Source: Gallionella sp. (GTDB lineage: Bacteria > Pseudomonadota > Gammaproteobacteria > Burkholderiales > Gallionellaceae). From it: DNA of 21,145 nt. Of this stretch, positions 133 to 19,114 are shown piece by piece. The translations under genes were made by a program, and so were the position numbers. The notes beneath the pieces were generated by a model, which worked only from the letters and a program-made list of their open reading frames with translations, was not told the DNA's origin and did no database searches. Position 1 is the first letter of the stretch. The number at the start of each line of letters is the position of its first letter. Location: positions 1 to 21,145 of the forward strand of contig JANYHX010000119.1 of the NCBI GenBank assembly GCA_025362155.1. Direction: 5' to 3'.

Positions 133-1194
133 TTATACCAAAACCTTGCCGTGGTAGCCTGCTGCGGTGTATGCCGCCAGTACTTCGGCAGTGACAGTAG
201 CGTGAGTATCTTTTTTTGCCAGCGCCACACAGGCACCACCAAAACCGGCACCCGTCAAGCGCGCGCCATACACTGCTTGATGGCGCTGAAGTAAATCCAC
301 GAGTACGTCCAGCGCCGGAATTGATACGGCAAAATCATCGCGCAGGCTCGCATGAGACGCGTTCATCAACTCACCAAAACGTTCCACGCTGATTGGACCC
401 ACTGCTTCCAGCACGCGCTGATTTTCGCTGATGACATGGTGTGCGCGCTGTTTAAGTGGAAAGGGTAACGCTTCGATGCGGCGCAGGTCATCGACATCCC
501 GTAAAGCGGGTACGCCAAGCAGGGCGGCGGCCTGTTCGCATTCGCTGCGGCGCTGGTTGTATTCGCTATTGGCCAGCGACCTGGGTACGCCGCTGTCGAT
601 CACAATCAATTCTGTGTTCGCCGGTAAAGGCAAAATTGCGCGCTGCAGCGTGCGCGTATCAAGAAACAGCATATGGCCCACATCGGCCAAACTCGAGGCC
701 ATTTGATCCATGATGCCGCAACGCACGTGCGCAAACTGAATTTCGGCCTGCTGTGCGATCTGTGCAATTTCGACATCGTCGATGTTGAAGCCGAATAATT
801 TTCGCAAGCCGCGCAATACTGCAACCTCAAGCGCGGCGCTGCTCGACAGTCCGGCGCCTATTGGCACCTCGGAGCTGATGGTCATGGCCACCGGGGTCAG
901 CGGAAAACCTTTTTGTTGCAATAAACGAATACAGCCGAATACATAACTCGAAAATCCGGCAGGCATATCTTGCTCGGGTACGTAGGAGACAAACTCGTCG
1001 AGGCGATCAGCATATAACTGATACTCATTGTTGGGGCTGCGCGCCAACTCAATATATGTGCGCTGTGGAATGGCCGTCGGCAAGACGAAACCATCGTTGT
1101 AATCAGTATGCTCGCCCAGAAGATTGACGCGCCCCGGTGCATCGGCGGCGGCTTGGGGGGTAAAGCCGAAAACATCGTAAAAAACTGACTTCAT
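133..1194 (-). CDS. galK: Galactokinase
   Basis: Phosphorylates alpha-D-galactose with ATP to galactose 1-phosphate in the cytoplasm, the first committed Leloir step. The 353-residue protein has the galactokinase signature GRVNLLGEHTDYNDG at about 21-35, the GHMP-kinase ATP loop VPIGAGLSSSAALEVA at about 110-125, the catalytic Asp in GIMDQM (D163) with the partner Arg at R22, and the C-terminal GHMP motif LTGAGFGGACVAL at about 313-325. Length is slightly below the usual 380 or so, but all motifs are intact. It is the last gene of the minus-strand operon, 9 bp after the broken M24 gene, and two genes after galT. No galE is seen in the window, so the epimerase must be encoded elsewhere or be unnecessary here. 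Confidence 0.96.
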   Translation of the reverse strand: MKSVFYDVFGFTPQAAADAPGRVNLLGEHTDYNDGFVLPTAIPQRTYIELARSPNNEYQLYADRLDEFVSYVPEQDMPAGFSSYVFGCIRLLQQKGFPLTPVAMTISSEVPIGAGLSSSAALEVAVLRGLRKLFGFNIDDVEIAQIAQQAEIQFAHVRCGIMDQMASSLADVGHMLFLDTRTLQRAILPLPANTELIVIDSGVPRSLANSEYNQRRSECEQAAALLGVPALRDVDDLRRIEALPFPLKQRAHHVISENQRVLEAVGPISVERFGELMNASHASLRDDFAVSIPALDVLVDLLQRHQAVYGARLTGAGFGGACVALAKKDTHATVTAEVLAAYTAAGYHGKVLV

Positions 1195-1203
1195 GGCTAA
1201 GCC

Positions 1204-2315
1204 TTATTTTTCCATTATTTGCGGACGTTGCCGACCCCGCACCATTTCATGCGGCCAAGCCGCGTCATAGGTCAGATTTTCCACCCCCTGCGCGGTCACC
1301 ATAAAGGTATCTTCGATTTTGGCGCCACCGCGCAGGCTGGGATTCCACGCTATCGGCGTCGCATCGCTCAGCGTTTCAAGCGTTTCAGGCGTGGCGACAA
1401 TTTCGCGTGCCAGGTAACCGGTGGTGCCGCCCTGATGATGTTCAAGAATGGCCGCTGCGTGACCGCGGGCAAGATAGGCGGCTTCCAGCGTGCGATAAAT
1501 TTCATTCAATGGAATCTGGGGACGACAGGCATCCAGCGCTTCCGCTTCGATTTCGCAAACCTGTTGTTGCAACCTGGTCCATCCACCCGGCAATTCGCCG
1601 AAGCTGACAAAGCGGGTCAAATTCGCATACAGCCCAAATCCGCGCGCACAAAATACCAGCATCGCCATCCTGCCGAGTTTAGCCGCGCTGGCGGTAGGGT
1701 GGCGGTAGGGTGGCGGTAGACGGGCAAGCGTTGTGCACCGGCTGCCAGTGTCAATGCCGGGTGCAGACCGCGTGCCCACAAGGCCTCGGCCCCCGCACCG
1801 GCCAGTTGGTACTCGCTCCACTCCGGCTGCGCGGCACTCAATGCTTCGCGCATGGCTGCACTGGCGAGCCGACCGACCTGGCGATAACGAATAATTTCGG
1901 CAGGTGACATATGCCTTTTCAAGGCGAGCAAGGCGGAGGGTAGCGGACGCTCTCCATTGCATGGGCAGTCTGAGAGAATGGCTGCGTTGGCGCTCATTTC
2001 CTGGACTGCAATATCGCGCGTAGCCGGATACATCCACGGGTCTACATGGAGTTTAAATACGGAAGGCAACTCTTCATCTTTTAAGCGCTGTGCTTCAATC
2101 GGATCAGTCAATACCCACGCCTCATGTGGGGTGATCAATACTTCCGCGACGCCGATATTCGTCGTCAGCAACACCACATTCGACGCCCCTGCTGTCGCCC
2201 ACGAAAACCAGTCATAACCACGCAAACATAACGCCGTATTGGGTTTCAACGCCATGCGTACAGCCATAAGCTTGGTGCTGACCTCGGCATCGCGCGCTGC
2301 CAGATCGAAGCTCAT
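1204..2315 (-). pseudogene. M24-family (creatinase / aminopeptidase P fold) protein, frameshifted
   Basis: The N-terminal frame (from ATG 2315, MSFDLAARDAEVSTK) resembles the N-terminal half of Xaa-Pro-aminopeptidase-like proteins. The C-terminal half continues in another frame down to TAA 1204. The switch falls inside an 11-bp tandem duplication at 1690-1711. Removing one copy joins the frames as PVYRHPTASAAKLGRMAM and gives an uninterrupted protein of 366 residues, the expected length. In the pita-bread domain, the position of the two metal-binding Asp residues reads MLVFCARGFGLYANLTRF, lacking both, and the first Glu ligand is not seen (IAWNPSL). The His (LEHHQGG) and last Glu (AKIEDTFMV) remain. 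Even the restored protein may therefore not be a metallopeptidase. The start overlaps the galT stop as ATGA. Sequencing error is an alternative to true mutation. Confidence 0.82.
1690..1719. repeat. 11-bp tandem duplication that shifts the M24 frame
   Basis: The unit GGCGGTAGGGT occurs at 1690-1700 and again at 1701-1711, followed by the first 8 bases of a third copy (GGCGGTAG, 1712-1719). Eleven is not a multiple of three, so each gain or loss of one unit changes the frame. Loss of one unit restores a continuous M24 reading frame on the minus strand. The layout fits replication slippage. Confidence 0.93.
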
Positions 2316-3397
2316 AACGAAACGGCGACCGCCTGTAATTCCTGCGCTTTTTCTTCCGGTAACGCGTCGTTGGCAAACATGCCTGCCGCCAGTTCGGTAC
2401 CCGCCAGATATTTCAAGCGGTCACGGGTGCGATAGGGCGGATAAAACTCTGCATGTAAATGCCATTCCGGATGCGCCTCGCCGTCGGTGGGCGCCTGATA
2501 CCAGGCCATCAGGTAGGGAAAAGGCCGTTGCCATAAACCGTCGTATTTCAGTAATACTGTTTTTAACGCTTTGGCGAGATCGGCGCGTTGCGGCTCATCC
2601 AAAGAGGAAAAATCCGGCACTGCTTTACGCGGCGCCACCCAGACTTCATAAGGATAACGCGCCCAGGCTGGGACAAAGGCAACCGCATGTTCTCCGACAT
2701 AGAGCATGCGCAGATCGGCCTTGATTTCTGCTGCGATTAATTGCTCCAGCAAAGGCTGCTTATATTCGCGGTAATGTGTCAGCTGCTGCTCGTGCATACG
2801 TTGGGGCACCGGCGGAATAAAGGGATAGGCATAAATTTGCCCATGGGGATGGTGCAAAGTGACGCCGACTTCCACCCCGCGATTTTCAAACGGCAATACA
2901 TACTGAATGGACGGATGTTCAGCCAGCGCGGTGGTGCGCGCACCCCACACCATCAACAGCAATTCGATATGGGACAACGGCAATGCTGCCAAGGAGCTCA
3001 AGGGATCCTGCGTAAATACCACCACCTCGCACTGACCGTTTGCGGGCAGGGTTTTAACTACACTTTCAGGCGGGTCATGTGCTTGCAAGGTCAGCGAGGG
3101 AAAACGGTTATCAAATACGGCAATGTCGTAATCGCCCTGAGGAAGCTCAGTCGGATTCGACGCATCTCGCGTTACCGCCAACGGGTTGTATTCCGGCGGT
3201 GGCATGAAGGTGCGGCCTTGGCGATAGCTGGCGTAAGCCACCCATTCGCCGCGTAGCGGATGCCAGCGCAAATGCGGATTGGCCGCTACCGGCTCGGGAC
3301 TGGGGCTGGGTGCTGCGGCTACCGAGGTGATGGGGGCGCGACTATATAAAAAAAGTTTGCGCCCATCCGGTTTCGTCAGTTCCTTGGCATACAACAT
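2312..3397 (-). CDS. galT: Galactose-1-phosphate uridylyltransferase
   Basis: Exchanges UMP between UDP-glucose and galactose 1-phosphate, yielding UDP-galactose and glucose 1-phosphate. The 361-residue protein has the N-terminal GalT block HLRWHPLRGEWVAYASYRQG at 42-61, the NRFPSLT block at about 97-103, the active-site motif HHPHGQIYAYP at 182-192 with H185 as the expected uridylylated histidine, and the C-terminal EWHLHAEFYPP at 311-321. The zinc-binding Cys-X-X-Cys usual near residue 70 in E. coli-type enzymes is replaced by NPLAVT, so the structural metal site looks altered or absent. The frame starts one base after the upstream GH2 stop and overlaps the M24 start by 4 bp, which implies one transcript and coupled translation. 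Confidence 0.95.
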   Translation of the reverse strand: MLYAKELTKPDGRKLFLYSRAPITSVAAAPSPSPEPVAANPHLRWHPLRGEWVAYASYRQGRTFMPPPEYNPLAVTRDASNPTELPQGDYDIAVFDNRFPSLTLQAHDPPESVVKTLPANGQCEVVVFTQDPLSSLAALPLSHIELLLMVWGARTTALAEHPSIQYVLPFENRGVEVGVTLHHPHGQIYAYPFIPPVPQRMHEQQLTHYREYKQPLLEQLIAAEIKADLRMLYVGEHAVAFVPAWARYPYEVWVAPRKAVPDFSSLDEPQRADLAKALKTVLLKYDGLWQRPFPYLMAWYQAPTDGEAHPEWHLHAEFYPPYRTRDRLKYLAGTELAAGMFANDALPEEKAQELQAVAVSL

Positions 3398-5173
3398 TTA
3401 ATCGTGTCCGCGTACGATTTCCGCAAGGCGCCGCATCGGAATTTTCGGGGTGCGGTCGCCATACAGCAAGCCATTAGCTTCCTGGAAAGTATCCGTAAAC
3501 TGGGTATAACAAAAGCCGCTAAACATGGCAGTAGTGCGCGCGACGTCGATAAGGGCGCTGCATTGCGCTTCATATTCGGCATGGTTCTCATAAAACCGGT
3601 ATCCCCAGGCGCGACCGCGGGTCTTGTCGTCTGGATGCACATAGGCGAGGCCGCCAAATTCGGTCAGGAAAATCGGCTGACCGCGATGCGGATAACCGTC
3701 AAGTGTCAGAATGCGCCCGCCGGGACGACGGCGGTCAAACAATTCCTCCGGCTTGACCAGCCGCCCGTAGCGGCGCCGCAAAGTCGAGGGATTAAAATCG
3801 TAATCATGGATGCCGATGATGTCGGTAGCTGAACTTTCCCAGCCGTCATTGCCGATCACAGGTCGCGTCGGATCCAGTGTTTTGGTGAGGTGATAAAAAG
3901 CCTCGACAGCGGCGCGGTGTATATGGGAAGCGGCCAGATCAGGGACGCCCCACGATTCATTAAATGGCACCCAGACAATAATGCAGGGGTGGCTGTAGTC
4001 GCGGTCAATCGCTTCTGTCCATTCTTGCATCAGGCGCTTGATTGATTTGGGGCTGAAGCGATAGGCGCTGGGCATTTCTTCCCATACGGTCAGCCCGAGC
4101 TTGTCGGCCCAGTAGAGATAGCGCGGGTCTTCGATTTTTTGGTGCTTGCGCACACCGTTGAATCCCATTTCCTTGGCGAGTTCCACATCTCTGCGCAACG
4201 CATTATCGGAAGGCGCGGTCATCAGCGTATCCGGCCAATAACCCTGGTCGAGCACCAGCCGCAATTGATAAGGCCGGCCGTTGAGCAGCAGGCGGTCGCG
4301 TTGAACATTCACTGAACGGATCGCGGTATAGGATTTGATCCGGTCAACTTTTTGATTGCCGCACCACAGCGTGATATCAGCGTCGATTAAAGTCGGCCGT
4401 TCCGGACTCCACAGCAGATCATTACGGTAATCATCTATGCCTGGATCGGACAAGGCAATCCGTCTATGCACCTCTCCGCCTATAACCTGATAGCTGTCAT
4501 CAACCAGCAACTGCGTGCCACGCGTCAAGCGGATCGAAATGCGCATGTCATCGCTGAGCTGGCCGACAATAAATCCCTCAAAGCCGATTTCCCAGCGCTC
4601 CAGATGCGGCGTCCAGCGGATATGGCGTATATAGGTTTCGGGAACTGATTCCAGCCATACGGTTTGCCAGATGCCGGTAGTGCGCGGGTACCAGATGCCG
4701 TGAGGCTCGCGTTGCCAGTCTTGCTTGCCGCGCGGTTTCTCCAAATCTTCAGGATCATCTTCCGCCCTGACGGTAATGCGTTGCGTACTGCTTTCCCGCA
4801 GCAGCATGGTGATGTCCACCGAAAAAGGCGTATGTCCGCCCTCATGCTCAATCGCCAGCATGTTGTTGATCCATACACGCGCAAAATAATCGACTGCACC
4901 GAAATGCAGAATGACGCGACCCGATTCCTTATGCGCTGGCTTTTCATATTCAAACTCGCGTTCATACCAGCAGGCGCGATGGAAGCCAGTGTCGCCGATA
5001 CCGCTAGCGCGGCTTTCCGGAGCAAATGGGACAAGTATGGTATGGGGCCATTCCGTCAGCTCTGACGGTTGCCGGAAGCGTTGTTCGGGATCGAAAAAAA
5101 ATTTCCATTTCCCATTGAGCGATACCCACTGGGGACGTTCAAGCTGGGGGCGAGGATAAGCCATTTCCGTCAT
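3398..5173 (-). CDS. Glycoside hydrolase family 2 (beta-galactosidase/beta-glucuronidase type)
   Basis: Cleaves a beta-linked sugar by the retaining GH2 mechanism. The order of domains is the N-terminal sugar-binding jelly roll (SLNGKWKFFF near 18-27, DTGFHRACWYEREF near 61-75), an Ig-like domain around 170-280, and a TIM barrel from about 285 on. The acid/base Glu is in VWVPFNESWG (about E406) and the nucleophile in IFLTEFGGLAYV (about E505). No signal peptide is visible, so it should be cytoplasmic. At about 591 residues it is of glucuronidase size, far shorter than LacZ. ATG at 5173 shares its A with the TGA of the preceding gene; a GTG at 5176 is also in frame. Between the UGM-like fusion and galT, a galactosidase role is likely but the substrate is not shown by sequence. 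Confidence 0.9.
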   Translation of the reverse strand: MTEMAYPRPQLERPQWVSLNGKWKFFFDPEQRFRQPSELTEWPHTILVPFAPESRASGIGDTGFHRACWYEREFEYEKPAHKESGRVILHFGAVDYFARVWINNMLAIEHEGGHTPFSVDITMLLRESSTQRITVRAEDDPEDLEKPRGKQDWQREPHGIWYPRTTGIWQTVWLESVPETYIRHIRWTPHLERWEIGFEGFIVGQLSDDMRISIRLTRGTQLLVDDSYQVIGGEVHRRIALSDPGIDDYRNDLLWSPERPTLIDADITLWCGNQKVDRIKSYTAIRSVNVQRDRLLLNGRPYQLRLVLDQGYWPDTLMTAPSDNALRRDVELAKEMGFNGVRKHQKIEDPRYLYWADKLGLTVWEEMPSAYRFSPKSIKRLMQEWTEAIDRDYSHPCIIVWVPFNESWGVPDLAASHIHRAAVEAFYHLTKTLDPTRPVIGNDGWESSATDIIGIHDYDFNPSTLRRRYGRLVKPEELFDRRRPGGRILTLDGYPHRGQPIFLTEFGGLAYVHPDDKTRGRAWGYRFYENHAEYEAQCSALIDVARTTAMFSGFCYTQFTDTFQEANGLLYGDRTPKIPMRRLAEIVRGHD

Positions 5174-8055
5174 CACAGCCCCCGACTGGCATCCCTGGTT
5201 TTTAAGCGTCTGGTGTGATCAAAAGCCCCATTATTATTACTGTAAAAAGCCGCTCGCTGCGAGGCTGCCTGTGCTGCGGTGGATACCGCGGGCACCGCGC
5301 TGTGAGCGGATGCCGCAAGAGCAGTTTTGTCATATTGAGAATGTACGTAGTCCGCAGCTTTTTTACCGGCAATAAAGGCATGGTCGGAGTTATAGTATTC
5401 CCACTCGCTATAACGCCCAGCGAGAACAATATCCTGTTCATGCAGCCACGAACGTATCAACGACACATGCTTGAGCCGTGCATGATCGTAGATGACATAG
5501 GCATAGGGCATATCCACTTCGTTGGCGACCCAAACCGGATCGCTCGCATTGATAATACCGACCTTGATGCAATCGGCTATACACCGCTGAATCAGTGCCT
5601 CGCCTTCGCAGGGCAGAGGTTTATGGGGGGAATAGGTAATTTCGCAGGTCAGCCCGAAGCCGCCGGGCGGATTGCAGTGCGGGCTGGCATTTCCCTGTAC
5701 AAAAATACGATGGAAGACGCTGTCTTCGGGAAAGTAAATCCAGTGTTTATTGGTCAGATTGGAACGGCCAATGCCGAGATTGATGCAGCGCACGGAGACA
5801 TGCCGCAGGCCTTGCGCAGCGCTCCGGACTACGCTCGGCACACCATCATCCATCAACTTAATGAGCTCGGGCAGCGGCAATGTGCTGACCAGCGACTGAT
5901 AGCTATATTCTGTTCCATCTGTCAGTGTGACACGATGATTTGCCGGAGAAATGGCGCTGACCTGCGCATTGAGTTTGAGCTGGCCTTGCAGATGGGGCAA
6001 AAATCCATCCATCAGCGTCTGGAAACCGCCTTTCAATGGGTAGCCGAAACGGGCATTGGGTCCCATGGGCTTGGCCACGGGCTGTAATGCGCCTTCAATC
6101 ATTTCTTCAAGATCGGGCAATGGTACGCGGCCGCCCAGCCAGGATGTTTCCATTTCAGTCAAAGGCACGGCCCAGAGTTTACGGTTATAGGGAATCGCAA
6201 AATGTTCGGCAATTCCTGAGCCCCAAACATGATAAATAAAATCCTCGAAATTACGTGCTCCCTTGCGGCGATTGGGAAAAGGCAGCACATGCGATTTGTT
6301 TGCCGGAACGGTGGCTTCCATGATGCCATCGCCGCAGCAATCAGTAATGGATTCGGCTTTGCAGGCGCTCGCGCTGCTGCCATTGCCAGACTTGCTTTCT
6401 GACTTGGCGCCCGCGGCTACCACGGTGGGTTTGAGAATGCTGCCAAAGCGCGCTTCAATGGCACCGACGATACAGTCTTTGATGACTTCAGGCGGAAGGC
6501 CATAAAGAGCGCCCTGAAAGGGATAACGCGTATAAACCTGCTTGCTGTAAACCCATGCCTCGCGTTCTTGCCAATGGATATTATTGCCAAGCAATAATTT
6601 ATATAACTCGTGAACATAGGGATCATTGGAAAACATTATGTGTCCGGCATAATCGAAGGTGAATCCTTTATCATCAATCGAACGGCACCAGCCGCCCACG
6701 GCTGCATTGCGTTCCAGTAACAACGAATCTGCGCCCAGATGGTAGGCGGCGCTCAGACCAGTGGGTCCGGCACCGAGGACAATAGTCCGCGGCTGTGGAG
6801 AGTGTGAATTAAGGCTGCCAGCCACCGATGGCGAATGCTTGTTAATAGAATTTTGGCTATGAGATTTCGGGTCGATAGAGTTTTCATCTATCTCCATGCC
6901 GTCAAATCCCGCAGGTTGTTCTCGTAGCAACGCGGCCGCTGCCGAGGGCAAATGATGTTGCTGAATGGAGTTGTCAATGAGTCCGCTCATTGCTTTGACA
7001 GTGGCATCCCACGAAGTACGCGACAGCACATCGCGCATTTTTACTATTCGTTTTTCCTGCTGATCGGGCGTAGCGAGCAAGGCATCTTCACAGGCGTCAA
7101 TAAATGCTGGCGAAGTATCCGCCAGATAAACGATTTCGCCATAGGGTTGTGCTACGTCAGTAATGGGTGTGCTGACGATGGGGCGCTCAGCCACCATATA
7201 TTCCAGGGTTTTGGTCGGGCTGATGAAACGCGTTGCTTGGTTGCGTGCAAAGGGCAACAGGCAGACGTCCCAACCCGCCAGAAAGCTGGGTAATTGTGCA
7301 TAATCCTGTTGCCCGAAGTAATGAATATTGGACTGTCGTGGTAACGTGTCCGGGGAGATTTTAACTACCGGGCCGACCATAATAATTTGCCACTCTGGAT
7401 GTGCGGCAGCAAGATCATCAATTAATTCCAGATTAATACGCTCATCAATGACGCCAAAAAAACCAAGGCGCGGATGAGATAGTGGTTTTTGTAATTCCGA
7501 TTCGATTTCTGGCCTGCGCGCCTGGGCAAAATGGGCGGCATCGACACTGCTGGAAAAACAATGGACATTAGAGTTGCGGTCTTTTTTGGCGTTATACAAA
7601 CTGGGGCCGCCGGTAAACACCAGATCAGCGGCTTTTAACAAGGCTGTTTCGCGCTGTAGCAACTGGCGCGGCGCATTGAGGAAAGCCGATAGTTCATCCA
7701 TGCAGTCGTAGATGATGCTGCGAGGTTGAATCGATTGCAACAACGGCAGAGCCATAGGCGTATAAAACCACGCCACATAATCCTTGAGATTTTCGTCAAG
7801 AACCAATCTTTCCAGCAAGGAATTCAAATAGGGTAACTGTTGATCGTGAAAGCCCACGGACTTTTCGGGGGTATGGGGTGTGCATACCAGCACATTGCCA
7901 TGCTGCTTGCAGTCGAGAAAAGTGGAATCATCCGGTACCGGCTCCTCAAAAAATATTACGCGGTGAGCAGCAGCGAAGCGGCTCATCAAGTGTTGAGGAC
8001 GTTGATACACGAAGTCCCATCGCAGATGGGAAAATACGATAAGGTCATAGGTCAT
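5173..8055 (-). CDS. Fusion: GT4-like glycosyltransferase + UDP-galactopyranose-mutase-like FAD protein
   Basis: A 960-residue protein with two enzyme halves. Residues 1-365 form a GT-B fold glycosyltransferase: it begins YDLIVFSHLRWDFVYQRPQH and has a donor-binding block SPTKTLEYMVAERPIVST at 279-296. A Ser/Asn/His-rich linker (about 365-422) leads to an FAD-binding half (423-908). This has dinucleotide motif VLGAGPTGLSAAYHL with acidic E449, GGWCRS, the block FDYAGHIMFSNDPY that matches the UDP-Galp mutase GPHIFHT region, GYPLKGGFQTLMDGF at 671-685 and a C-terminal FAD block AGRYSEWEYYNSDHAF. A Ser/Ala/Gly/Lys-rich insertion lies at about 543-598, and a low-complexity tail follows 908. Chemistry could be galactofuranose formation and transfer, or another flavin reaction on an activated sugar. 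It has a strong ribosome site and follows the GH1 gene by 29 bp. Confidence 0.85.
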   Translation of the reverse strand: MTYDLIVFSHLRWDFVYQRPQHLMSRFAAAHRVIFFEEPVPDDSTFLDCKQHGNVLVCTPHTPEKSVGFHDQQLPYLNSLLERLVLDENLKDYVAWFYTPMALPLLQSIQPRSIIYDCMDELSAFLNAPRQLLQRETALLKAADLVFTGGPSLYNAKKDRNSNVHCFSSSVDAAHFAQARRPEIESELQKPLSHPRLGFFGVIDERINLELIDDLAAAHPEWQIIMVGPVVKISPDTLPRQSNIHYFGQQDYAQLPSFLAGWDVCLLPFARNQATRFISPTKTLEYMVAERPIVSTPITDVAQPYGEIVYLADTSPAFIDACEDALLATPDQQEKRIVKMRDVLSRTSWDATVKAMSGLIDNSIQQHHLPSAAAALLREQPAGFDGMEIDENSIDPKSHSQNSINKHSPSVAGSLNSHSPQPRTIVLGAGPTGLSAAYHLGADSLLLERNAAVGGWCRSIDDKGFTFDYAGHIMFSNDPYVHELYKLLLGNNIHWQEREAWVYSKQVYTRYPFQGALYGLPPEVIKDCIVGAIEARFGSILKPTVVAAGAKSESKSGNGSSASACKAESITDCCGDGIMEATVPANKSHVLPFPNRRKGARNFEDFIYHVWGSGIAEHFAIPYNRKLWAVPLTEMETSWLGGRVPLPDLEEMIEGALQPVAKPMGPNARFGYPLKGGFQTLMDGFLPHLQGQLKLNAQVSAISPANHRVTLTDGTEYSYQSLVSTLPLPELIKLMDDGVPSVVRSAAQGLRHVSVRCINLGIGRSNLTNKHWIYFPEDSVFHRIFVQGNASPHCNPPGGFGLTCEITYSPHKPLPCEGEALIQRCIADCIKVGIINASDPVWVANEVDMPYAYVIYDHARLKHVSLIRSWLHEQDIVLAGRYSEWEYYNSDHAFIAGKKAADYVHSQYDKTALAASAHSAVPAVSTAAQAASQRAAFYSNNNGAFDHTRRLKTRDASRGL

Positions 8056-8060
8056 GAATT

Positions 8061-8066
8061 TCTCCT
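8061..8066 (-). promoter_or_regulatory. Strong ribosome binding site of the GT/FAD fusion gene
   Basis: Minus strand reads AGGAGA five bases before the ATG at 8055. It is a near-perfect Shine-Dalgarno sequence and fixes the start of the fusion protein at MTYDLIVFSH. Confidence 0.8.
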
Positions 8067-8084
8067 AAAATTTTAACTAACTAA

Positions 8085-9254: not shown

Positions 9255-9448
9255 TACAATAGCCCCTCGTGCCAGCATCTTGTAAGTTTCTTAAATTTAT
9301 CCATGGGGTTGCACACTGTAATTGCTTGAAGGCGTAGGCCATTTTGTTGTCAATTTTGTATTTTTATTGTCTGCTTCTGTGCCCCTATATACTGTGCGTT
9401 CTCGTACATCCGAGTAAAAATTATTTATGTGGGAAGATACATGGTGCC
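9255..9448. promoter_or_regulatory. Divergent promoter region between the two operons
   Basis: This AT-rich 194-bp gap separates the starts of the minus-strand galactose/GT-FAD operon and the plus-strand dprE1-like operon, so it should hold both promoters. Plus-strand candidate: TTGTCT (9367-9372), 15 bases, TATACT (9388-9393). Minus-strand candidate: TTACAG (complement of 9316-9321), 16 bases, TAAATT (complement of 9294-9299). A consensus TTGACA is also present on the minus strand (complement of 9348-9353) but no good -10 box follows it. I see no convincing operator palindrome. The boxes are eye-picked and weak; the position as a shared regulatory region is firm. Confidence 0.5.
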
Positions 9449-10804: not shown

Positions 10805-11538
10805 GTGAAAGGGTATTGATATTAGGCGCCACTTCGGCGATCGCCCGTGCCACGGCTGCCGCCTTTGCCGCGCGCGGTGCGGCCTTGTATCTGGCTTCAC
10901 GCGATGCGGATGAGTTGCAGCGCATCGCTGCGGATTTGCGGCTGCGCTATGACGTGGAAGTACGTTATGGCTTGTTTGATGCTGAAGCGACTGAAAGTCA
11001 CGAAGCATTTTTTAAATCTGTTATTCAACATATGCCCACTCTTTCCGGCGTGGTATTGGCTTTTGGTTATCTCGGCAATCAACAGGCAGCGCAAGATTTT
11101 AGCGTGGGCGCGAAAGTGATCACCAGCAACTTTACCGGTGCAGTATCTATCCTGAGTCACTGCGCGAATTATTTCGAGACGTTGCAGAGCGGTTTCATCA
11201 TCGGTATTTCTTCGGTGGCCGGAGATCGCGGCAGGCAAAGCAACTATATGTATGGTGCCGCAAAAGGCGCGCTCAGCCTGTATCTGCAAGGGCTCCGTAA
11301 CCGCCTGTTTGTCAGGGGTGTGCGGGTTATCACTATCAAGCCTGGGTTTGTCGATACGGCCATGACATTCGGGCTTCCCGGTTTATTTTTAGTCGCCTCT
11401 CCGCAACACATCGGCGAACGTATTGTGGCCACCTTGGGTAAGTCGGCAGACGTAGTTTATCTTCCGAGTTTCTGGCGTTACATCATGCTGATCATCAAAC
11501 ATATTCCAGAACCTGTTTTCAAGCGGATGAAATTGTGA
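10801..11538 (+). CDS. dprE2: DprE2-like short-chain dehydrogenase (keto-sugar reductase)
   Basis: A 245-residue short-chain dehydrogenase/reductase. It has a nucleotide-binding turn LILGATSAIARAT at 6-18 (Ala/Ile/Ala in place of the usual Gly pattern, as in DprE2-type members), a Ser pair in IGISSVAG (S137, S138) and the catalytic YGAAK (Y151, K155). C-terminal residues after PGFVDTAMTF continue into a hydrophobic and basic tail ending FKRMKL that could touch the membrane. By family and position directly after the oxidase it should reduce the 2-keto lipid sugar with NAD(P)H to the arabino form. Its start overlaps the oxidase stop (ATGA) and its stop overlaps the next start (GTGA), so the three genes are translationally coupled. 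Confidence 0.9.
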   Translation: MSERVLILGATSAIARATAAAFAARGAALYLASRDADELQRIAADLRLRYDVEVRYGLFDAEATESHEAFFKSVIQHMPTLSGVVLAFGYLGNQQAAQDFSVGAKVITSNFTGAVSILSHCANYFETLQSGFIIGISSVAGDRGRQSNYMYGAAKGALSLYLQGLRNRLFVRGVRVITIKPGFVDTAMTFGLPGLFLVASPQHIGERIVATLGKSADVVYLPSFWRYIMLIIKHIPEPVFKRMKL

Positions 11539-12152
11539 GTATGCCGGGAGTGGAAAAGCCGGTCGTGGCGGCATTCGATTTCGATGGCACCTTGACGCAT
11601 CGCGACACTTTGGTGCCGTTCCTGTTGCAGGTTGTCGGCTTGGGTCATTTTGTTCGCAATGCATTCGTATTGCTTCCGACGCTTTCGGCTTACGGTCTGC
11701 GCATAATCCGCAATGACGTAGCCAAACAACGCGTACTCAGCCGATTTTTTGCCGGTATGCATATCGACACCTTGCGGGGCAAGGCGACAGAGTTTGCCGA
11801 ACACCAATTACCGGGACTGATACGCCCGGAAGCGGCACGGCGCTTTGCTTGGCACAAACAACAGGGACATCGCTGTATCGTGATCAGCGCATCGCTGGAA
11901 ATTTATGTGCGGCCTTGGGCACTGAGCAAAGGCTTTGATGATGTACTGGCTACACAACTGGAAACACGAGCGGACGGAAGCGTTAGCGGAAACCTGTTGG
12001 GAGAAAACTGTTTTGGCAGCGAAAAAGTAAAACGACTGGACGCATTGCTGGGGGCAAGAAGCAGCTATATTTTGTATGCCTATGGCGACAGCCGAGGAGA
12101 TAAAGAATTGCTGTCCGTAGCCGACCATGCCTATTACCGAAAGATGAACTGA
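11535..12152 (+). CDS. HAD-superfamily (IB, SerB-like) phosphatase, likely lipid-sugar phosphatase
   Basis: A 205-residue haloacid-dehalogenase phosphatase. Motif I is AAFDFDGTLTHRD (D15 nucleophile, D17), motif II is IVISAS (S118), motif III is the Lys in GSEKVKRL (K164), and motif IV is YGDSRGDKELL (D185, D189). Together these make a complete Mg2+-dependent active site. It sits within the DprE-like set and no PgpB-type phosphatase is seen, so the likely task is removal of the 5-phosphate from polyprenyl-phospho-5-phosphoribose made by the UbiA-type enzyme. That role is inference; SerB-like enzymes act on many small phosphates. GTG at 11535 overlaps the reductase stop; an ATG two codons on (11541) is the alternative start. 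Lacks signal peptide. Confidence 0.85.
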   Translation: MSMPGVEKPVVAAFDFDGTLTHRDTLVPFLLQVVGLGHFVRNAFVLLPTLSAYGLRIIRNDVAKQRVLSRFFAGMHIDTLRGKATEFAEHQLPGLIRPEAARRFAWHKQQGHRCIVISASLEIYVRPWALSKGFDDVLATQLETRADGSVSGNLLGENCFGSEKVKRLDALLGARSSYILYAYGDSRGDKELLSVADHAYYRKMN

Positions 12153-12158
12153 AAGCAA

Positions 12159-14069
12159 ATGAAAGTGGACATTCTGACGGCGCGTATGCGACAACTTTTC
12201 CCTGCTTGGCTACTCCCTGGACTCCTGGTGTTGATCAGTGCTGCAGCTGTGTTAGCTGCTTACTGGCCGACGCTACACTACATCTTTATTTCTGACGATA
12301 CTGTTTACATCACGGAAAACACCAGGCTGTTGGAGTTGCCCTTCAACGAATTGTGGCGCCTCTTTATCGAGCCATATAACCATTATTCCGAATTTCTTCC
12401 GCTGCGCGAACTTTCTTACTGGTTCGACATCACGCTGTTTGGCCTGAACGCAGCTGCGTTCCGCATGCACAACATTATTTTATATCTGCTGTGCCTGCCG
12501 TTGGTCTATGCCATTTCCTCAAACTTGTGGCGATACTTTTGTGCGGCAGACGCCGCGAGCGCGCCTTGGGCAGCAGCGGCCATTACCGTATTATTTGCGC
12601 TGCATCCCTCGCATACCGAAGCAGTAGTATGGATCAGCGGCCGCAAAGATGTGCTTTCAACGCTGCTTTCGCTGTTCGCCATATGGTTTGCCGTGCGGGC
12701 AAAGCGTGAACAGGGTCTTGCTGCGCCGCATGCAATAGCCAGCTTGGCGGCACTACTAGCGGCGATGCTTGCCAAGGCCTCGGCTTTTGCGGTGGCGCCC
12801 ATCATTGCTCTGCTTTGGATGATGTTCTGGTTCAATATACCCGCGCCACAGCGGCGCAATTCGATATTGTTGTGGCCGCTTGCCAGCCTGTTATTGGCAG
12901 GGTGCATGGCGCTGATTTTTGCGACTATCATCCCGACAAAGATCCCCTTCTATTTTGGAATTGAAGCAGTCACCAGGTCACTAGCGGTATTGGGGTGGTT
13001 GGCTAGACTTGCCGTGAGCCCGGAAAGCCGACACTTTTTTTACCCGGTACTGGAAGATCCGAATCTGACTGTCATGGTCATCCTTGGCGCAGTAGTTTTA
13101 TTGGCTGCGCTGGCGGTCAGTGCAAGAGTGCTTATGCGCAAGCGACTGTGGCTTGAGGGATTTGCGATACTTGTTTTTTTTCTGCTCTGCCTGCCCAGTA
13201 TTCAACTGATACCTTACCAGCCGCCTTCACTCGTTTCAGACCGCTGGTTAGCCCTTGCGGTATGGCCCAGCACGCTGTTGATCGTCGCATTGGCATGGCA
13301 TTTAAAGTCGGCGCCCCGCGCAGTCCTATTTGTTGTGATTGGGCTGGCATGGGGTTACCAAAGTATCGAACGCTCCCGGGATTGGCGAAATTTAGAAACA
13401 CTGATAGATGCCGATGTTCGAGCCTATCCGGGATATTATTTACCTGCGGCACATAAAATTATTTATGTGCAATTGAGGAGAGGCCTGCGCCGCGAGGCAA
13501 TTGAAACCGCCAATACCATCTCGGATACCGCTGCAAGGAATATCATGATCGAACTGGTCAAGACTGATTATGCGGTACGGGACATTGCAGTAGCCACTGG
13601 CAATCCTCAAGGAGCAATGACGCTATTGAGTAAATTAGAACTGGACATTAAACCCCCGGAGCAAACAAAGTGGAATACGGCTATGAAGAATTTTTGGTCA
13701 ATTACAGGATTTGCGGTAATCGGTGAATGGGAATCACTGGCCAAACAATTTCCTGATGCCGCGCCGGTACACTACAACACGGGCTTGTGGTTATTGAAGG
13801 TGCATAAATATAAAGAAGCGGTTGTCCATTTGCGCAGCGCGATCGAGTCTGGGCATCTTTCGGAACCTGCACGCGGACCAGCGTTGAAAAATCTCGGCCT
13901 GGCACTGATAGGCGCAGGGGATATCGCCGCAGCAGAAGCCCCATTACGCGCTGCCTTGCAACAGGTACCGCCAGATTTGCGTGCATATTGTCCGCTCGCA
14001 GAGGTCTATAGACATACTGGTCGGATCGAAGAAGCCACACGTGGCGATGCCGCATGTCCCCCTGAATGA
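12159..14069 (+). CDS. Polytopic GT-C glycosyltransferase (TMTC-like) with C-terminal TPRs
   Basis: A 636-residue inner-membrane protein. After the first membrane helix (about 17-35) comes an outward loop with acidic pair SDDTVYITENTRL (D46, D47), as in GT-C enzymes, then LPLRELSYWFD and the highly conserved LHPSHTEAVVWISGRKDVLS at 148-167, typical of TMTC-type proteins. About ten membrane helices extend to residue 400; a soluble region with TPR-like helices follows (clearest about 535-630, KNLGLALIGAGDIAAAEAPL). GT-C enzymes move sugars from polyprenyl-phosphate donors onto periplasmic acceptors, so it is the natural user of the donor made by its neighbours. Acceptor (protein, lipid or glycan) is unknown. 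It follows the HAD gene by 6 bp. A paralogue ends at the left edge of the window. Confidence 0.85.
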   Translation: MKVDILTARMRQLFPAWLLPGLLVLISAAAVLAAYWPTLHYIFISDDTVYITENTRLLELPFNELWRLFIEPYNHYSEFLPLRELSYWFDITLFGLNAAAFRMHNIILYLLCLPLVYAISSNLWRYFCAADAASAPWAAAAITVLFALHPSHTEAVVWISGRKDVLSTLLSLFAIWFAVRAKREQGLAAPHAIASLAALLAAMLAKASAFAVAPIIALLWMMFWFNIPAPQRRNSILLWPLASLLLAGCMALIFATIIPTKIPFYFGIEAVTRSLAVLGWLARLAVSPESRHFFYPVLEDPNLTVMVILGAVVLLAALAVSARVLMRKRLWLEGFAILVFFLLCLPSIQLIPYQPPSLVSDRWLALAVWPSTLLIVALAWHLKSAPRAVLFVVIGLAWGYQSIERSRDWRNLETLIDADVRAYPGYYLPAAHKIIYVQLRRGLRREAIETANTISDTAARNIMIELVKTDYAVRDIAVATGNPQGAMTLLSKLELDIKPPEQTKWNTAMKNFWSITGFAVIGEWESLAKQFPDAAPVHYNTGLWLLKVHKYKEAVVHLRSAIESGHLSEPARGPALKNLGLALIGAGDIAAAEAPLRAALQQVPPDLRAYCPLAEVYRHTGRIEEATRGDAACPPE

Positions 14070-14083
14070 ATAGGAATAGTGTA

Positions 14084-14125
14084 ATGAAAGTATCTGGACT
14101 ATTGTTTCTGTTGTTCTGTATATAA
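14084..14125 (+). CDS. Possible 13-codon hydrophobic peptide between GT-C and UbiA genes
   Basis: ATG 14084 to TAA 14125 encodes MKVSGLLFLLFCI, with an AGGA-type ribosome site nine bases upstream of the ATG. It sits alone in the 69-bp gap before the UbiA-type gene. It looks like a truncated signal peptide: a remnant of a lost gene, a leader that affects ribosome traffic to the next gene, or chance. The evidence is only the start, ribosome site and hydrophobic content. Confidence 0.2.
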   Translation: MKVSGLLFLLFCI

Positions 14126-14138
14126 CCCTGCCAAGAAA

Positions 14139-15011
14139 ATGAAAAAAATATTCGAGTTACTGCGGCTGATGCGCCCCTATCAGTGGGTGAAAAATGCCTT
14201 CATATTTACCGGCTTGTTGTTTGGCCATGCTTGGCATGACCCACAGTTGGTTGCACAGGTAATCATTGTCTTCCTCGCATTCTGTTTGGTGTCCAGCGCG
14301 ATTTATACCTTCAACGACATCATTGATTTGGAGCAGGATAAACAGCATCCCAAAAAATGCTTGCGGCCATTGGCGTGCGGATCGGTCACTATGCCCGCTG
14401 CCGTGATGCTCGCAGCATTGCTGGGTGGGTTGGGTTTAATGCTGGCGTATTCGGCCGCGCCTAAGGTGCTGGTAATTCTGATCGGATATGCGCTGATGAA
14501 CATCGCTTATTCACTTTGGCTCAAACATGTGGTGATTCTGGATGTTTTTATTATTGCTACCGGCTTCATGCTACGCATTCTTGCGGGCACGCTGGGAGTG
14601 GGTATCCCGCCTTCGCAGTGGCTGTTGCTGTGCGGTCTGATGGTGACGCTGTTTCTTGGTTTTACCAAACGCCGCGCGGAAATCATAGCGTTGACTGATG
14701 ATAAAACCGCGCACCGTAAAGTACTGGAACATTACAGTCCGGTGCTACTGGACAAAATGATCGGGATTACGGCAGCGGGTCTGATCATGAGTTATAGCCT
14801 ATACACCATGAATCCCGACACCATACGCATCCACAACACACCCAATTTGATTTACACCGTGCCGTTCATGATGTACGGGGTATTTCGTTACATCTATCTG
14901 TTGCATCACCAGAGCCGTGGCGGCGACCCATCGCATGATCTGGTGCGTGATCCACATTTGTTCGCGGTGGTAGTCGCATGGCTGCTGGCGACCATACTGT
15001 TGATCGCATGA
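14139..15011 (+). CDS. UbiA-family polyprenyl-phosphate phosphoribosyltransferase (DPPR synthase-like)
   Basis: A 290-residue UbiA-superfamily membrane enzyme with about eight or nine helices. The diphosphate/Mg2+ motif is YTFNDIIDLEQDKQHPKKCL (56-75). The HP-K-RP-A pattern after the aspartates is that of decaprenyl-phosphate 5-phosphoribosyltransferase (Rv3806c type), not of ubiquinone or heme prenyltransferases. The second acidic region is LKHVVILDVFIIATGFMLR (128-146), followed by FTKRRAEI. It should transfer 5-phosphoribose from PRPP to a polyprenyl phosphate on the inner face of the membrane, the entry step for the HAD, DprE1-like and DprE2-like enzymes encoded upstream. Its ribosome site is weak. 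The stop overlaps the next start as ATGA. Confidence 0.9.
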   Translation: MKKIFELLRLMRPYQWVKNAFIFTGLLFGHAWHDPQLVAQVIIVFLAFCLVSSAIYTFNDIIDLEQDKQHPKKCLRPLACGSVTMPAAVMLAALLGGLGLMLAYSAAPKVLVILIGYALMNIAYSLWLKHVVILDVFIIATGFMLRILAGTLGVGIPPSQWLLLCGLMVTLFLGFTKRRAEIIALTDDKTAHRKVLEHYSPVLLDKMIGITAAGLIMSYSLYTMNPDTIRIHNTPNLIYTVPFMMYGVFRYIYLLHHQSRGGDPSHDLVRDPHLFAVVVAWLLATILLIA

Positions 15012-15976
15012 GGCATACTATTCTGAGCGGCTGGCGTTTCCGCGCGCTGTTGCTGATTGTGCTGTTGAGCGCCATTGGTTATCTGGTGTTTTCCATATGG
15101 GGGGGCTGGCATGAAGTGGTTGCGGCGATGGTGCGGGTGGGCTTTACTGGAATGGTCATTGTGCTGACGCTTTCACTGGTCAATTACGGATTGCGCTTTG
15201 TGCGCTGGCAAAAATTCCTCGCGTTGCTCGGGCATCGTGTTTACACGCCGGAAAGCCTGCGCATTTACATCGCGGGATTCGGCCTGACCATATTGCCTGG
15301 CAAGGCTGGGGAAGCGATACGCAGTTTGTTCCTAAAGCATCATGGCATTTCCTATCCGGAAAGTCTGGCGGCTTTTTTTTCGGAGCAATTTTCCAATCTC
15401 ATCAGCATGCTGATGTTAGTCTCTATCGGTTTGTGGTTGTATCCGCCTGCTAAGCCTTTGGTCGTGATTCTTGCAACGTTAATTGTGACCGGTTTGGTCG
15501 TTCTGCAGCAAACCAAATGGCTGAAAGCGCTGAAGACCGTTGCGCAGAATCGCTTGCCGGGTCGGCTGGGCAAGTTAGTCCATCACGGCATTGAAATCGT
15601 GCTGCATTCCGGGCGTTGCTTTCGTCTGCCCATGTTGCTGTATGGAATTGTCCTTGGGCTGGTTGCGTGGGGCTCAGAGGGCGTGGCTTTTTACTACATC
15701 ATGCATGTTTTGGGCAGCGATCTGTCGCTGCCCACGGCACTGTTCATTTATGCTTTCTCGATACTGGTCGGCGCACTAAGCTTTCTGCCTGGGGGCTTGG
15801 GCGGGGCTGAAGTCACCATGGTAACATTGCTCATATTAAATAATGTCGCGCAACCTCAGGCCGTTGCCGCAACTGTATTAATCCGGCTGGCGACGTTGTG
15901 GTTTGCCGTTGCGTTGGGCGTGTTTGCGCTGACTCTGCCCGAGCAGGAAACGGCAGTCGAAAAAAACAATCCATGA
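15008..15976 (+). CDS. Flippase-like integral membrane protein (LPG synthase TM region / UPF0104)
   Basis: A 322-residue polytopic protein of the family that includes the membrane part of lysylphosphatidylglycerol synthase (MprF). Family features are LRFVRWQKFLALLG (62-75), GLTILPGKAGEAIRS near 92-106, AAFFSEQFSNL near 121-131 and the conserved LPGGLGGAEVT near 260-270. It has no soluble aminoacyltransferase domain. In glycan clusters such proteins are proposed to move lipid-linked sugars across the membrane, which would fit between the cytoplasmic enzymes and the outward-facing GT-C protein; this is inference. I chose ATG 15008 because it overlaps the UbiA-type stop (ATGA), as do other genes of this operon; an upstream in-frame ATG at 14978 lies inside that gene. 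Confidence 0.82.
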   Translation: MRHTILSGWRFRALLLIVLLSAIGYLVFSIWGGWHEVVAAMVRVGFTGMVIVLTLSLVNYGLRFVRWQKFLALLGHRVYTPESLRIYIAGFGLTILPGKAGEAIRSLFLKHHGISYPESLAAFFSEQFSNLISMLMLVSIGLWLYPPAKPLVVILATLIVTGLVVLQQTKWLKALKTVAQNRLPGRLGKLVHHGIEIVLHSGRCFRLPMLLYGIVLGLVAWGSEGVAFYYIMHVLGSDLSLPTALFIYAFSILVGALSFLPGGLGGAEVTMVTLLILNNVAQPQAVAATVLIRLATLWFAVALGVFALTLPEQETAVEKNNP

Positions 15977-17004
15977 GAATTGAAGCATTAACTTTTTATA
16001 GATTTCTCGCGGCGATAATGGTTGTTGTCCATCACTTCGGCAATAATTTGGTTAGCCGTGATTTTGCATTCCAGATGGTCACATTTTTCTTTGTGCTATC
16101 AGGTTTTGTGCTGACCGTCGCGTATTACCCCAAAGCGGAATTTTCAACAAAATCGTACGCAATAAACAGAATATTCAGAATAGCGCCTGTTTATCTGATT
16201 GCCTTGGCATTAGCAATTGGGCCCAATTCGAAGGTAATCGCGATTATTTTAAACCTGACATTTCTTCAATCATGGTTTCCCCCTTATCCGCTTAGTGTCA
16301 ACTTCCCCGCTTGGTCACTATCTGTAGAGATGTTCTTTTACTTGTCTTTTCCATTTATTTTGGCCAATTTAAAAAAAACTTCGCCTATTCAATTCATGAT
16401 GGTAGCGGGAATAGTTTGGGGATTTACCCAAATGGCCATTATGAATTTGCTTAATAGTCCATTTTATGCAGGGTTTCCTTCTGTGTCCCATGATTTAATT
16501 TATTTTTTTCCGATCTCTCATCTGAATAGTTTTTTGTTGGGGATGGGTGCAGCAAGTATGTTTCTTAAGAATAACGTGAGATGGAAAATACCATCCCTGT
16601 ATTCCCTCCCACTCATCGCTTCTTTATTTGTATTAATAATTTTCGGGTATAAATTCGAACAAATGATTTCGTTTCTGCTTGGACACGATTGGAAGTTTGG
16701 GGGGAGCTTTTATGCGCCAGTTTTTATGGCATTGATTCTTATAACTGCACTCTCGGATAACTTTTTTACAAAAACATTATCACTCAAATTTCCAGTCCTG
16801 TTAGGAGAGGCAAGCTACGCACTGTATATATTGCAATTCCCAATGTATAAGATATTTTATAATTCGATTCGTCCGTTATTTCCTTTTGGTGGACTGGACC
16901 TGTTTGTTTACTTGGCGTTTCTGACAATGGCATCAATCATTTCGTTTTATTGCTTGGAAAAACCGGTTAAACGTTTAGGGCACAACTTACTCAATCGTAC
17001 TTAA
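15973..17004 (+). CDS. Acyltransferase 3 family membrane protein (sugar O-acyltransferase)
   Basis: A 343-residue, ten-helix-type acyltransferase. Landmarks are the N-terminal LTFYRFLAAIMVVVHHFGNN with the active-site His pair (H20, H21), FFFVLSGFVLTVAYY (38-52), the family block PAWSLSVEMFFYLSFP (112-127), and the closing helix with YCLEKPVKR. Such enzymes add acetyl or other acyl groups to exported glycans or lipids. ATG 15973 overlaps the flippase-like stop (ATGA). The gene is visibly richer in A/T than its neighbours (runs of T and A, many AAA/ATT/TTT codons), hinting at later acquisition. It is the last gene of the operon and is convergent with the YyaL-type gene 63 bp away; no clear terminator is seen in that gap. 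Confidence 0.87.
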   Translation: MRIEALTFYRFLAAIMVVVHHFGNNLVSRDFAFQMVTFFFVLSGFVLTVAYYPKAEFSTKSYAINRIFRIAPVYLIALALAIGPNSKVIAIILNLTFLQSWFPPYPLSVNFPAWSLSVEMFFYLSFPFILANLKKTSPIQFMMVAGIVWGFTQMAIMNLLNSPFYAGFPSVSHDLIYFFPISHLNSFLLGMGAASMFLKNNVRWKIPSLYSLPLIASLFVLIIFGYKFEQMISFLLGHDWKFGGSFYAPVFMALILITALSDNFFTKTLSLKFPVLLGEASYALYILQFPMYKIFYNSIRPLFPFGGLDLFVYLAFLTMASIISFYCLEKPVKRLGHNLLNRT

Positions 17005-19113: not shown

Positions 19114-19114
19114 G

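Follow-up and report, generated by a model that had tools for sequence, protein, structure and literature searches.

The stretch of DNA analysed here, a window of 21,145 nucleotides from a Gallionella sp. whose family is probably one of freshwater iron-oxidisers, carries two divergent operons, one on the minus strand (133-9278) and one on the plus strand (9449-17004). When 18 ORFs of the window were scanned against profiles, every gene named in a preliminary description of this DNA proved to be an ORF with the family match claimed for it. The 195-bp gap given there between the operons was also recovered, as about the distance from 9449 to 9254, one of two possible starts (9254 or 9278) of the GH1-like gene on the minus strand. 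The plus operon opens with a dprE1-like FAD oxidase (9449-10804; PDB DprE1 5oep, E 8e-92), the start of which is most likely 9449, since the listed TTG at 9344 lies well upstream of a profile match that begins at residue 42. It is followed by a dprE2-like SDR reductase (10801-11538; PRK07102, 304 bits, above the cut-off of 267), a HAD-IB enzyme predicted to be a 5-phosphoribose phosphatase (11535-12152; TIGR01490, 151 bits, cut-off 98), a GT-C glycosyltransferase with C-terminal TPR repeats and a TMTC-like architecture (12159-14069), a ubiA-type polyprenyl-phosphate phosphoribosyltransferase (14139-15011; PDB Rv3806c 8j8j, E 2e-35), a flippase-like LPG_synthase_TM/TIGR00374 protein (14978-15976; PF03706, 135 bits; TIGR00374, 78 bits, cut-off 43) and an acyltransferase-3 family protein (15973-17004; PF01757, 91 bits), which joins the flippase stop codon by an ATGA overlap. 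Pfam matches to a dsbH-like gene (DUF255), a GDSL esterase and an ABC ATPase (17068-20426) mark the right flank of the island. To the left the sequence ends at galK, at the edge of the window, and the left border of the island would lie beyond it. A tRNA search of the locus found none and repeat searches found no element borders; promoter and terminator scans stayed at about shuffle level (7 vs. 10.3 and 14 vs. 12.3, respectively).

The minus operon comprises galK, encoding a galactokinase (133-1194; Pfam GHMP_kinases and GalKase_gal_bdg; TIGR00131, 274 bits, cut-off 226.65), galT, encoding a galactose-1-phosphate uridylyltransferase (2312-3397; PF01087, PF02744; TIGR00209, 161 bits, cut-off 102), a GH2 glycosidase (3398-5176; PF02836/PF02837), the best NCBIfam match of which is the beta-glucuronidase model PRK10150 at 125 of 544 bits, a fusion of an N-terminal GT-B domain to a C-terminal eukaryotic-type UGM domain at ~423-905 (5173-8055; PF13692, PF13450, PF01593), and a GH1-like protein (8085-9278; TIGR03356, 29 bits), the PF00232 score of which (21.7 bits) is just below the gathering cut-off of 22.6. 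Between galK and galT we also observed a Peptidase_M24-like gene (1204-2315, minus strand) that is absent from the preliminary description. It is broken into two ORFs in different frames, 2315-1617 and 2037-1204, the downstream of which matches PF00557; its homologue L067:6558-7646 is a single 362-aa ORF with PF00557.

The plus operon had been described as DPA-type, that is, as a source of polyprenyl-phospho-arabinofuranose, and this reading is well supported because the active site is conserved and the gene set dprE1-dprE2-HAD-ubiA-flippase is repeatedly co-located in relatives. When UbiA was aligned to Rv3806c, 11 of the 13 ligand residues (for PRPP, Mg or lipid) named in PMC10994848 were identical, the remaining two being Q135N and Y157F. 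UbiA also passes the curated phosphoribosyltransferase model NF008977 (290 bits, cut-off 234). DprE1 (NF053785, 435 of 500 bits) and DprE2 (NF053786, 177 of 250 bits) miss the cut-offs of their NCBIfam equivalog models, so the epimer made could differ; the homology of both proteins is clear nonetheless. In L131, from the same genus, HAD and UbiA form one protein. The plus operon is thus probably a polyprenyl-phosphate pentofuranose pathway, in which lipid-linked arabinose would be made and exported to decorate surface molecules. From homology and binding-site identity we infer each reaction, the flipping step and the acceptor as follows. UbiA would move 5-phosphoribose from PRPP onto a lipid phosphate, and the HAD enzyme would strip the 5-phosphate from the resulting lipid-linked phosphoribose. 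The DprE1-like protein would then oxidise, and the DprE2-like protein reduce, C2 to give the arabinose epimer, which the TIGR00374 protein would carry across the inner membrane as lipid-sugar, and the GT-C/TPR enzyme would transfer arabinofuranose to a putative periplasmic acceptor, either a protein or a glycan.

Several known systems resemble this one in part. The phosphoribosyltransferase and oxidase are homologous to those of the mycobacterial DPA pathway, with the binding site conserved. In contrast to that pathway, a HAD phosphatase is present here in place of Rv3807c, which PMC11127046 states to be unrelated to HAD enzymes; in addition, no Emb/Aft-type gene was recognised in the window, and the operon has no conserved link to galactan genes. 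PMC11127046 also describes three-component pentofuranose systems in Citrobacter youngae O1/O2 that consist of a PRPP-dependent polyprenyl phosphoribose synthase, a HAD-family phosphatase, epimerisation, a flippase and a GT-C enzyme, and predicts DprE1/E2 homologues for Araf-containing glycans. Judged by family models rather than by the Citrobacter sequences themselves, the synthase, HAD phosphatase and GT-C enzyme are present here too. However, the HAD enzyme here is a separate protein, the GT-C enzyme carries TPR repeats where that of Citrobacter carries a carbohydrate-binding module, and the flippase-like protein is of the TIGR00374 type, compared with the MATE/EmrE-like or SMR types described there. 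The best reading is a putative Gram-negative three-component-like arabinofuranosylation system with a flippase of a different class. The genes PSPA7_6245-6251 and TfpW of P. paraeruginosa, described in PMC12369383, likewise represent D-Araf genes on a genomic island of a Gram-negative organism, with transfer by a GT-C enzyme. In that case pilin is arabinosylated, whereas no pilin gene was recognised in our window.

Of the 18 scanned ORFs, only the LPG_synthase_TM/TIGR00374 protein gave a flippase-like match. No MATE/EmrE- or SMR-type flippase was found among them, in a scan that covered ORFs of 100 aa and longer, an SMR protein being about that size. In 27 of the 28 family loci, ubiA has a flippase-like gene no more than 1.5 kb away. 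In another set of 43 loci, made up of L131 and 42 from outside the family, such a gene was present in 11 of 19 that were dprE-positive vs. 0 of 24 that were dprE-negative (Fisher p 1e-5); the other eight dprE-positive loci gave no flippase-like match. The TIGR00374 protein, which tracks DprE1/E2, is a candidate polyprenyl-P-arabinose translocase. For that step, according to PMC11127046, flippase activity lacks direct experimental support.

The GT-C/TPR enzyme has the architecture of TMTC proteins, and its DD motif (D46, D47) is invariant in 30 GT-C/TPR sequences. The N-terminal GT-C domain, C-terminal TPR repeats and invariant DD are features in common with the TMTCs described in PMC7801869, which also reports prokaryotic TMTC homologues of essentially full length and mentions DUF1736 for TMTCs. 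In contrast, DUF1736 was not among the 23 Pfam families matched by the 30 GT-C/TPR members at E<=0.1, and the predicted donor here is arabinose. A plain Foldseek search with the predicted model was dominated by TPR matches, and in a further list of structure matches AftD, EmbB and AftB ranked below OST and PMT. Homologues at E<=1e-60 occur in 15 of the 28 family genomes with the module vs. 7 of the 130 without it (p 9e-9). These seven have no close ubiA; five are less than 90% complete, and G456 and G435 stand at 95%. Thirteen module genomes do not have a close GT-C/TPR gene, and some of them carry a PMT_2-type gene in its stead. It is conceivable that the enzyme uses another lipid-linked sugar, such as the mannose proposed as donor for TMTC proteins, and that it sits in the operon by chance. 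The association with the module argues against this, as does the order HAD-GT-C-ubiA, which is found in the window and in L125, L126, L127, L128, and L197, and we consider another donor unlikely.

The plus module is accessory in the family (probably Gallionellaceae), being present in 28 of 158 genomes. In 8 of the 11 genomes with enough flanking sequence, the island lies in one slot between sppA and the GDSL-esterase/ABC pair, and the GT-C genes vary between the islands found there; in the other three (G444, G445, and G543) the module lies elsewhere. All four module-less relatives examined (L234-L237) show the slot empty, with sppA followed by GDSL and ABC genes, which in two of them are preceded by dsbH. 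Among the papers listed in our literature searches, none was seen to describe a system of this kind for Gallionellaceae, and neither "arabino" nor "polysaccharide" occurs in the main text of a pangenome study of the family (PMC10734462).

The minus operon centres on the GT-B/UGM fusion. Its designation as UGM-like in the preliminary description stands in the wide sense, the fusion profile matching the eukaryotic-type UGMs of PDB 3ute (A. fumigatus) and 4dsg (presumably a trypanosomal UGM) at E about 1e-61; it does not extend to the canonical bacterial model TIGR00031, against which the fusion scores 19 bits (cut-off 303.75). Foldseek likewise returned A. fumigatus UGM, together with GT-B enzymes of the MshA/GumK type, from a predicted structure that is weak over the UGM half. 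Residues R643 and R783 do not vary among 24 sequences; by manual counting on the alignment, they correspond to R182 and R327. We take R182 and R327 to be the key arginines of UGM, and PDB titles list UGM mutants at both positions. Unlike its eukaryotic counterparts, the domain occurs here in a bacterium and is joined to a GT-B domain; relatives carry a GH1-like domain in the fusion as well. The fusion is widespread in bacteria: 553 instances were confirmed, and in 32 of the best 78 loci the GH1-like part and the GT-UGM share one ORF. Pfam searches of 10 genes flanking the fusion in four of these 78 loci (L116, L110, L089, and L047) identified an aldose 1-epimerase, near the fusion cassette in L116, a glycosyltransferase and a transposase; six genes had other functions, one had no match, and no polysaccharide-export cluster was recognised in this small sample. 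No description of a GT/UGM fusion was found in titles and opening abstract lines of the open-access papers listed in our searches, and in Kingella, according to PMC12269835, UGM and the Galf transferases are separate genes.

A galactofuranose module is a plausible reading of the minus operon because the UGM domain is of the eukaryotic type and has both key arginines. Going beyond homology, we infer that GalK and GalT would convert galactose to UDP-Galp, that the UGM domain would convert this to UDP-Galf, and that the fused GT-B domain, with its GH1-like partner, would use the product. The GH2 enzyme may free galactose for re-entry; a galactofuranosidase activity of this enzyme is a tentative lead. 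The term "GH2" is absent from the main text of the review PMC7278926. Alternatively, the operon could serve catabolism of galactose or beta-galactosides, with the UGM-like domain catalysing some other flavin reaction. The galK, galT, GH2 and GH1-like genes are indeed the usual tools of sugar use, and the canonical UGM model is missed. However, synthesis is the better fit for a glycosyltransferase fused to a eukaryotic-type UGM with both arginines and for the frequent inclusion of the GH1-like part in the same ORF, and no sugar transporter was matched among the 18 scanned ORFs. Catabolism therefore appears rather improbable.

Whether the two operons belong together was addressed by comparison with relatives, which suggests that they are independent modules. 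The plus module recurs in the family as given above, yet the fusion and the GH2 gene were each found in 1 of the 158 genomes, and DPA genes were found in none of the 78 fusion loci from other organisms (best 78 of 553 confirmed). Conserved linkage, the absence of which the preliminary description itself named as a refutation, was not seen in these sets, and its proposal that the operons jointly make an arabinogalactofuranose-like glycan is unsupported by conservation; nor did Araf and Galf genes lie together in a conserved manner, as expected of a mycobacterial-type arabinogalactan locus. We favour, with a probability of roughly 0.7, two independent glycan modules that adjoin each other within a single accessory region: the arabinofuranose plus operon and a separately acquired galactofuranose-type cassette. 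A single glycan built by both operons, as a Gram-negative counterpart of mycobacterial arabinogalactan, would account for their adjacent and divergent arrangement. Moreover, the fusion P0005 (78%) and the GT-C protein P0141 (65%) share a longest contig size of 24,847 bases and the same source; both may therefore occur in a second lineage, which speaks against full independence. Elsewhere such matches, judged by eye, link DprE1 and GT-C of one locus (18,437, 30,961, and 8,202 bases). The nearest listed fusions (90 and 87%) are also about as close as the nearest listed DprE1s (91, 90, and 89%), as would be expected if both came from one sister species. Against this, none of the 120 DprE1 matches listed has, by eye, the longest-contig value of any of the seven nearest listed fusions. 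Taken with the counts above, this makes a joint glycan quite unlikely. Very unlikely, and speculative, is an elaboration in which the acquired cassette supplies a Galf-containing acceptor for arabinosylation by the DPA-fed GT-C enzyme. This would give an arabinogalactofuranan assembled independently of mycobacteria, and the TIGR00374 protein would be a polyprenyl-P-arabinose translocase of a type so far unrecognised.

The adjacency of the two modules could also be an artefact, the contig being chimeric, with sequence from two genomes meeting between the operons. The source is a metagenome-assembled genome with 4.27% contamination, and no other of the 158 family genomes carries the fusion or the GH2 gene. 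However, with 14 sampled contigs of the source genome as reference, both halves of the minus operon fall inside the range of 13 pieces in tetranucleotide distance (0.162 and 0.156 vs. 0.138-0.203) and GC content (0.557 and 0.516 vs. 0.48-0.56), and the similar closeness of the nearest fusions and DprE1s also argues against a join; we regard a chimera as highly improbable. In composition, neither GC nor tetranucleotides gave the minus operon a foreign character. Across 15 genes for which composition was determined, the acyltransferase, with a GC of 0.378, was the one outlier.

On the reading of two independent modules, these results would add a family of environmental bacteria to those with lipid-linked arabinofuranose systems and name the TIGR00374 protein as a testable flippase candidate. 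They also highlight the fusion of a glycosyltransferase with a eukaryotic-type UGM, often together with a GH1-like domain, that is widespread in bacteria. Within the family, the arabinofuranose system would be a module that often occupies one chromosomal slot and whose glycosyltransferases can be exchanged.

ORF coordinates place the genes of both operons at few-base overlaps or short gaps, an operon-like arrangement, on either side of a divergence point at ~9,254-9,449 of the window, which is contig C5 (21,145 bases) of a metagenome-assembled genome (2.2 Mb, 330 contigs, 87.84% complete, 4.27% contaminated). The minus operon (133-9278) carries galK, a split Peptidase_M24-like gene, galT, GH2, a 960-residue glycosyltransferase-flavoprotein fusion (5173-8055) and a GH1-like gene; the plus operon (9449-17004) carries dprE1-like and dprE2-like genes, a HAD phosphatase, a GT-C glycosyltransferase with TPR repeats (12159-14069), ubiA, a flippase-like gene (LPG_synthase_TM/TIGR00374; 14978-15976) and an acyltransferase (15973-17004). 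ORFs and family matches confirmed the preliminary description's gene calls in both operons, and its assignment of the plus operon to a DPA-type (polyprenyl-phospho-arabinofuranose) pathway was borne out by the DprE1 and UbiA alignments. DprE1 of the window matches solved DprE1 (E 8e-92) and retains the HGKNHH and AKD motifs, which we take to be catalytic; both it and DprE2 score below their equivalog cut-offs. The HAD phosphatase belongs to the HAD-IB type. UbiA exceeds the cut-off of the decaprenyl-phosphate phosphoribosyltransferase model NF008977, matches solved Rv3806c (E 2e-35) and, when aligned, is identical at 11 of the 13 Rv3806c ligand residues named in the available text of PMC10994848 (R22, K28, Y70, N73, D77, K87, R90, Q135, Y138, K143, Y157, K191, K208). 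The exceptions are Q135N and Y157F, and residue 157 is Phe in some mycobacteria according to the same text. In its predicted workings the operon resembles the three-component pentofuranose systems described in the accessible text of PMC11127046, but its flippase class differs. The OST/PMT-like fold of the GT-C protein, together with the JGI name 'protein O-mannosyl-transferase' on 3 of the 120 homologues listed (P0142, P0164, P0182), weakly suggests protein O-glycosylation as the acceptor route. The acyltransferase gene has a GC content of 0.378 and overlaps the flippase stop codon in an ATGA, which ties it to the operon; its homologues adjoin the flippase gene in two fetched loci, L165 and L173.

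The preliminary description had proposed that the locus makes an arabinofuranose-containing, perhaps arabinogalactofuranose-like, surface glycan or protein modification, and conserved linkage of the two operons was looked for. At E<=1e-60, the genome of the window was the single one among 158 family genomes with the fusion, and likewise with the GH2 gene, while the module, scored by ubiA, occurs in 28 of 158 with the window's genome counted; the relatives are mostly draft genomes, and absence from incomplete ones is weak evidence. Three congeners (G001, G018, G020) carry more distant relatives of the fusion's UGM (UDP-galactopyranose mutase) half or of its GT half, and none of the six module-bearing congeners in a first set of 61 genomes had the fusion. 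DPA genes were absent from all 78 fusion loci examined, the best of 553 confirmed stretches, and among the 120 DprE1 proteins listed none matched, by eye, the contig sizes of the seven nearest fusions. Two hints point the other way: a fusion (P0005) and a GT-C protein (P0141) share a source and a 24,847-base longest contig, and similarity to the window proteins is about the same for the closest fusions as for the closest DprE1s. A joint arabinogalactofuranose-like glycan is improbable. Judging from these genomes, co-location of the fusion cassette and the DPA module may fairly be called rare.

Profile comparison of the fusion's C-terminal half gave eukaryotic-type UGMs (E about 1e-61), with no qualifying match to the canonical bacterial UGM model. 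R643 and R783 align, counted by hand, with R182 and R327 of the Aspergillus fumigatus enzyme and are invariant in 24 fusions. In the structure model the N-terminal half adopts a GT-B fold, most similar to MshA, sucrose-phosphate synthase and GumK, and the UGM half is of low confidence. Of 7,991 candidates scored in a protein search, 6,158 matched at E<=0.001, both Pfam domain kinds being present, by eye, on all 120 matches listed. The best 78 distinct loci of the genome scan come from Massilia, Nitrosospira, Pantoea, Methylococcales, Acidobacteria, Planctomycetes and others, and 55 have ~6 kb or more of flank on both sides. A strong GH1-like match (>150 bits) lies near the fusion in 42 of them and in the same ORF in 32; GH2, galT and galK (>100 bits) are nearby in 14, GH2 without the galT/galK pair in 20 more, and M24 in 11. 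On these counts, the minus-operon cassette recurs across phyla in varying subsets. In those 32 loci (L110:8786-12625, L116:8678-12757, L089:8516-12586 and others), GH1-like, GT-B and eukaryotic-type UGM parts form a single ORF of ~1,280-1,400 residues. The Peptidase_M24-like gene of the window (1204-2315, minus strand) is split over two frames, and its homologue at L067:6558-7646 is one ORF; the split would be due to pseudogenization or to an error in the sequence.

Longer flanks were fetched for 14 of the other 27 module-bearing genomes, and 11 were testable after three whose contig ends lay too near (G034, G035, G439) were left out. The module lies between sppA and a GDSL-esterase/ABC-ATPase pair in eight (G007, G012, G025, G026, G449, G450, G465, G475) and elsewhere in three (G444, G445, G543); in G035 neither a GDSL nor an ABC match turned up within 3.5 kb on the right side of the flippase gene, which argues against the usual slot there. 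All four module-less genomes examined (G013, G021, G443, G397) have sppA followed by (dsbH-)GDSL-ABC. The number of TPR-type GT-C genes between the borders ranges from zero to five, and PMT_2-type genes or ORFs with no match also occur there; the genome scan for GT-C scored at most seven candidates per genome. The window carries the right border, dsbH-GDSL-ABC, and a short contig of the same genome, C17 (L233), carries sppA, then a GT-C/TPR homologue, then ends. C17 thus fits as the left border of the window's island, the two contigs being unjoined, and the minus operon would lie inside that island. At the window's end, a 208-residue ORF (20520-21143), open at the contig end, gave no match in a Pfam scan.

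Other UbiA-type cassettes occur in the order. L131 (G032:C144), from a genome in the window's genus, has a ubiA only 30-32% identical to that of the window and encodes HAD and UbiA as a single protein, with genes for DprE1, DprE2 and an LPG_synthase_TM protein next to it; it is a different, second type of DPA cassette within the genus. G033:C106, from a genome without a close module, has a GT-C/TPR gene (1660-3501) followed by a distant UbiA-like ORF (3638-4063). Beyond the family, 40 of the 80 matching genomes of the order were taken (L238-L277) and, with L130, L131 and L132, gave 43 further loci, split by hand for dprE (L242 and L258 were scored positive via dprE2 or a partial edge dprE1). 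A PMT_2-type GT-C stands beside the UbiA-type phosphoribosyltransferase, without DprE1/E2, in 18 of the 24 dprE-negative loci (L245-L254, L256, L261-L265, L130, L132), which are predicted from gene content to be ribofuranose, not arabinofuranose, systems.

In the window the flippase-like gene and ubiA share a 34-base overlap; across the family the two are no more than 1.5 kb apart in 27 of 28 loci, the exception being G541. Among the 43 further loci it was present in 11 of 19 dprE-positive (10 of 18 minus L131) and 0 of 24 dprE-negative ones (Fisher p 1.3e-5, kinship uncorrected), a p value that overstates the case because the loci are related and several of the dprE-negative ones (L259, L263, L264, L270, L277) are short or truncated next to ubiA. 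Still, the gene tracks the epimerase pair, not the phosphoribosyltransferase. For the flipping step, the accessible text of PMC11127046 describes MATE/EmrE-like and SMR-type proteins, in contrast to the TIGR00374-type gene of the plus operon, and states that direct evidence of flippase activity is lacking. Given this gap and the association with the dprE pair, we propose the TIGR00374 protein as a candidate translocase, one that would move polyprenyl-P-arabinose in dprE-bearing systems.
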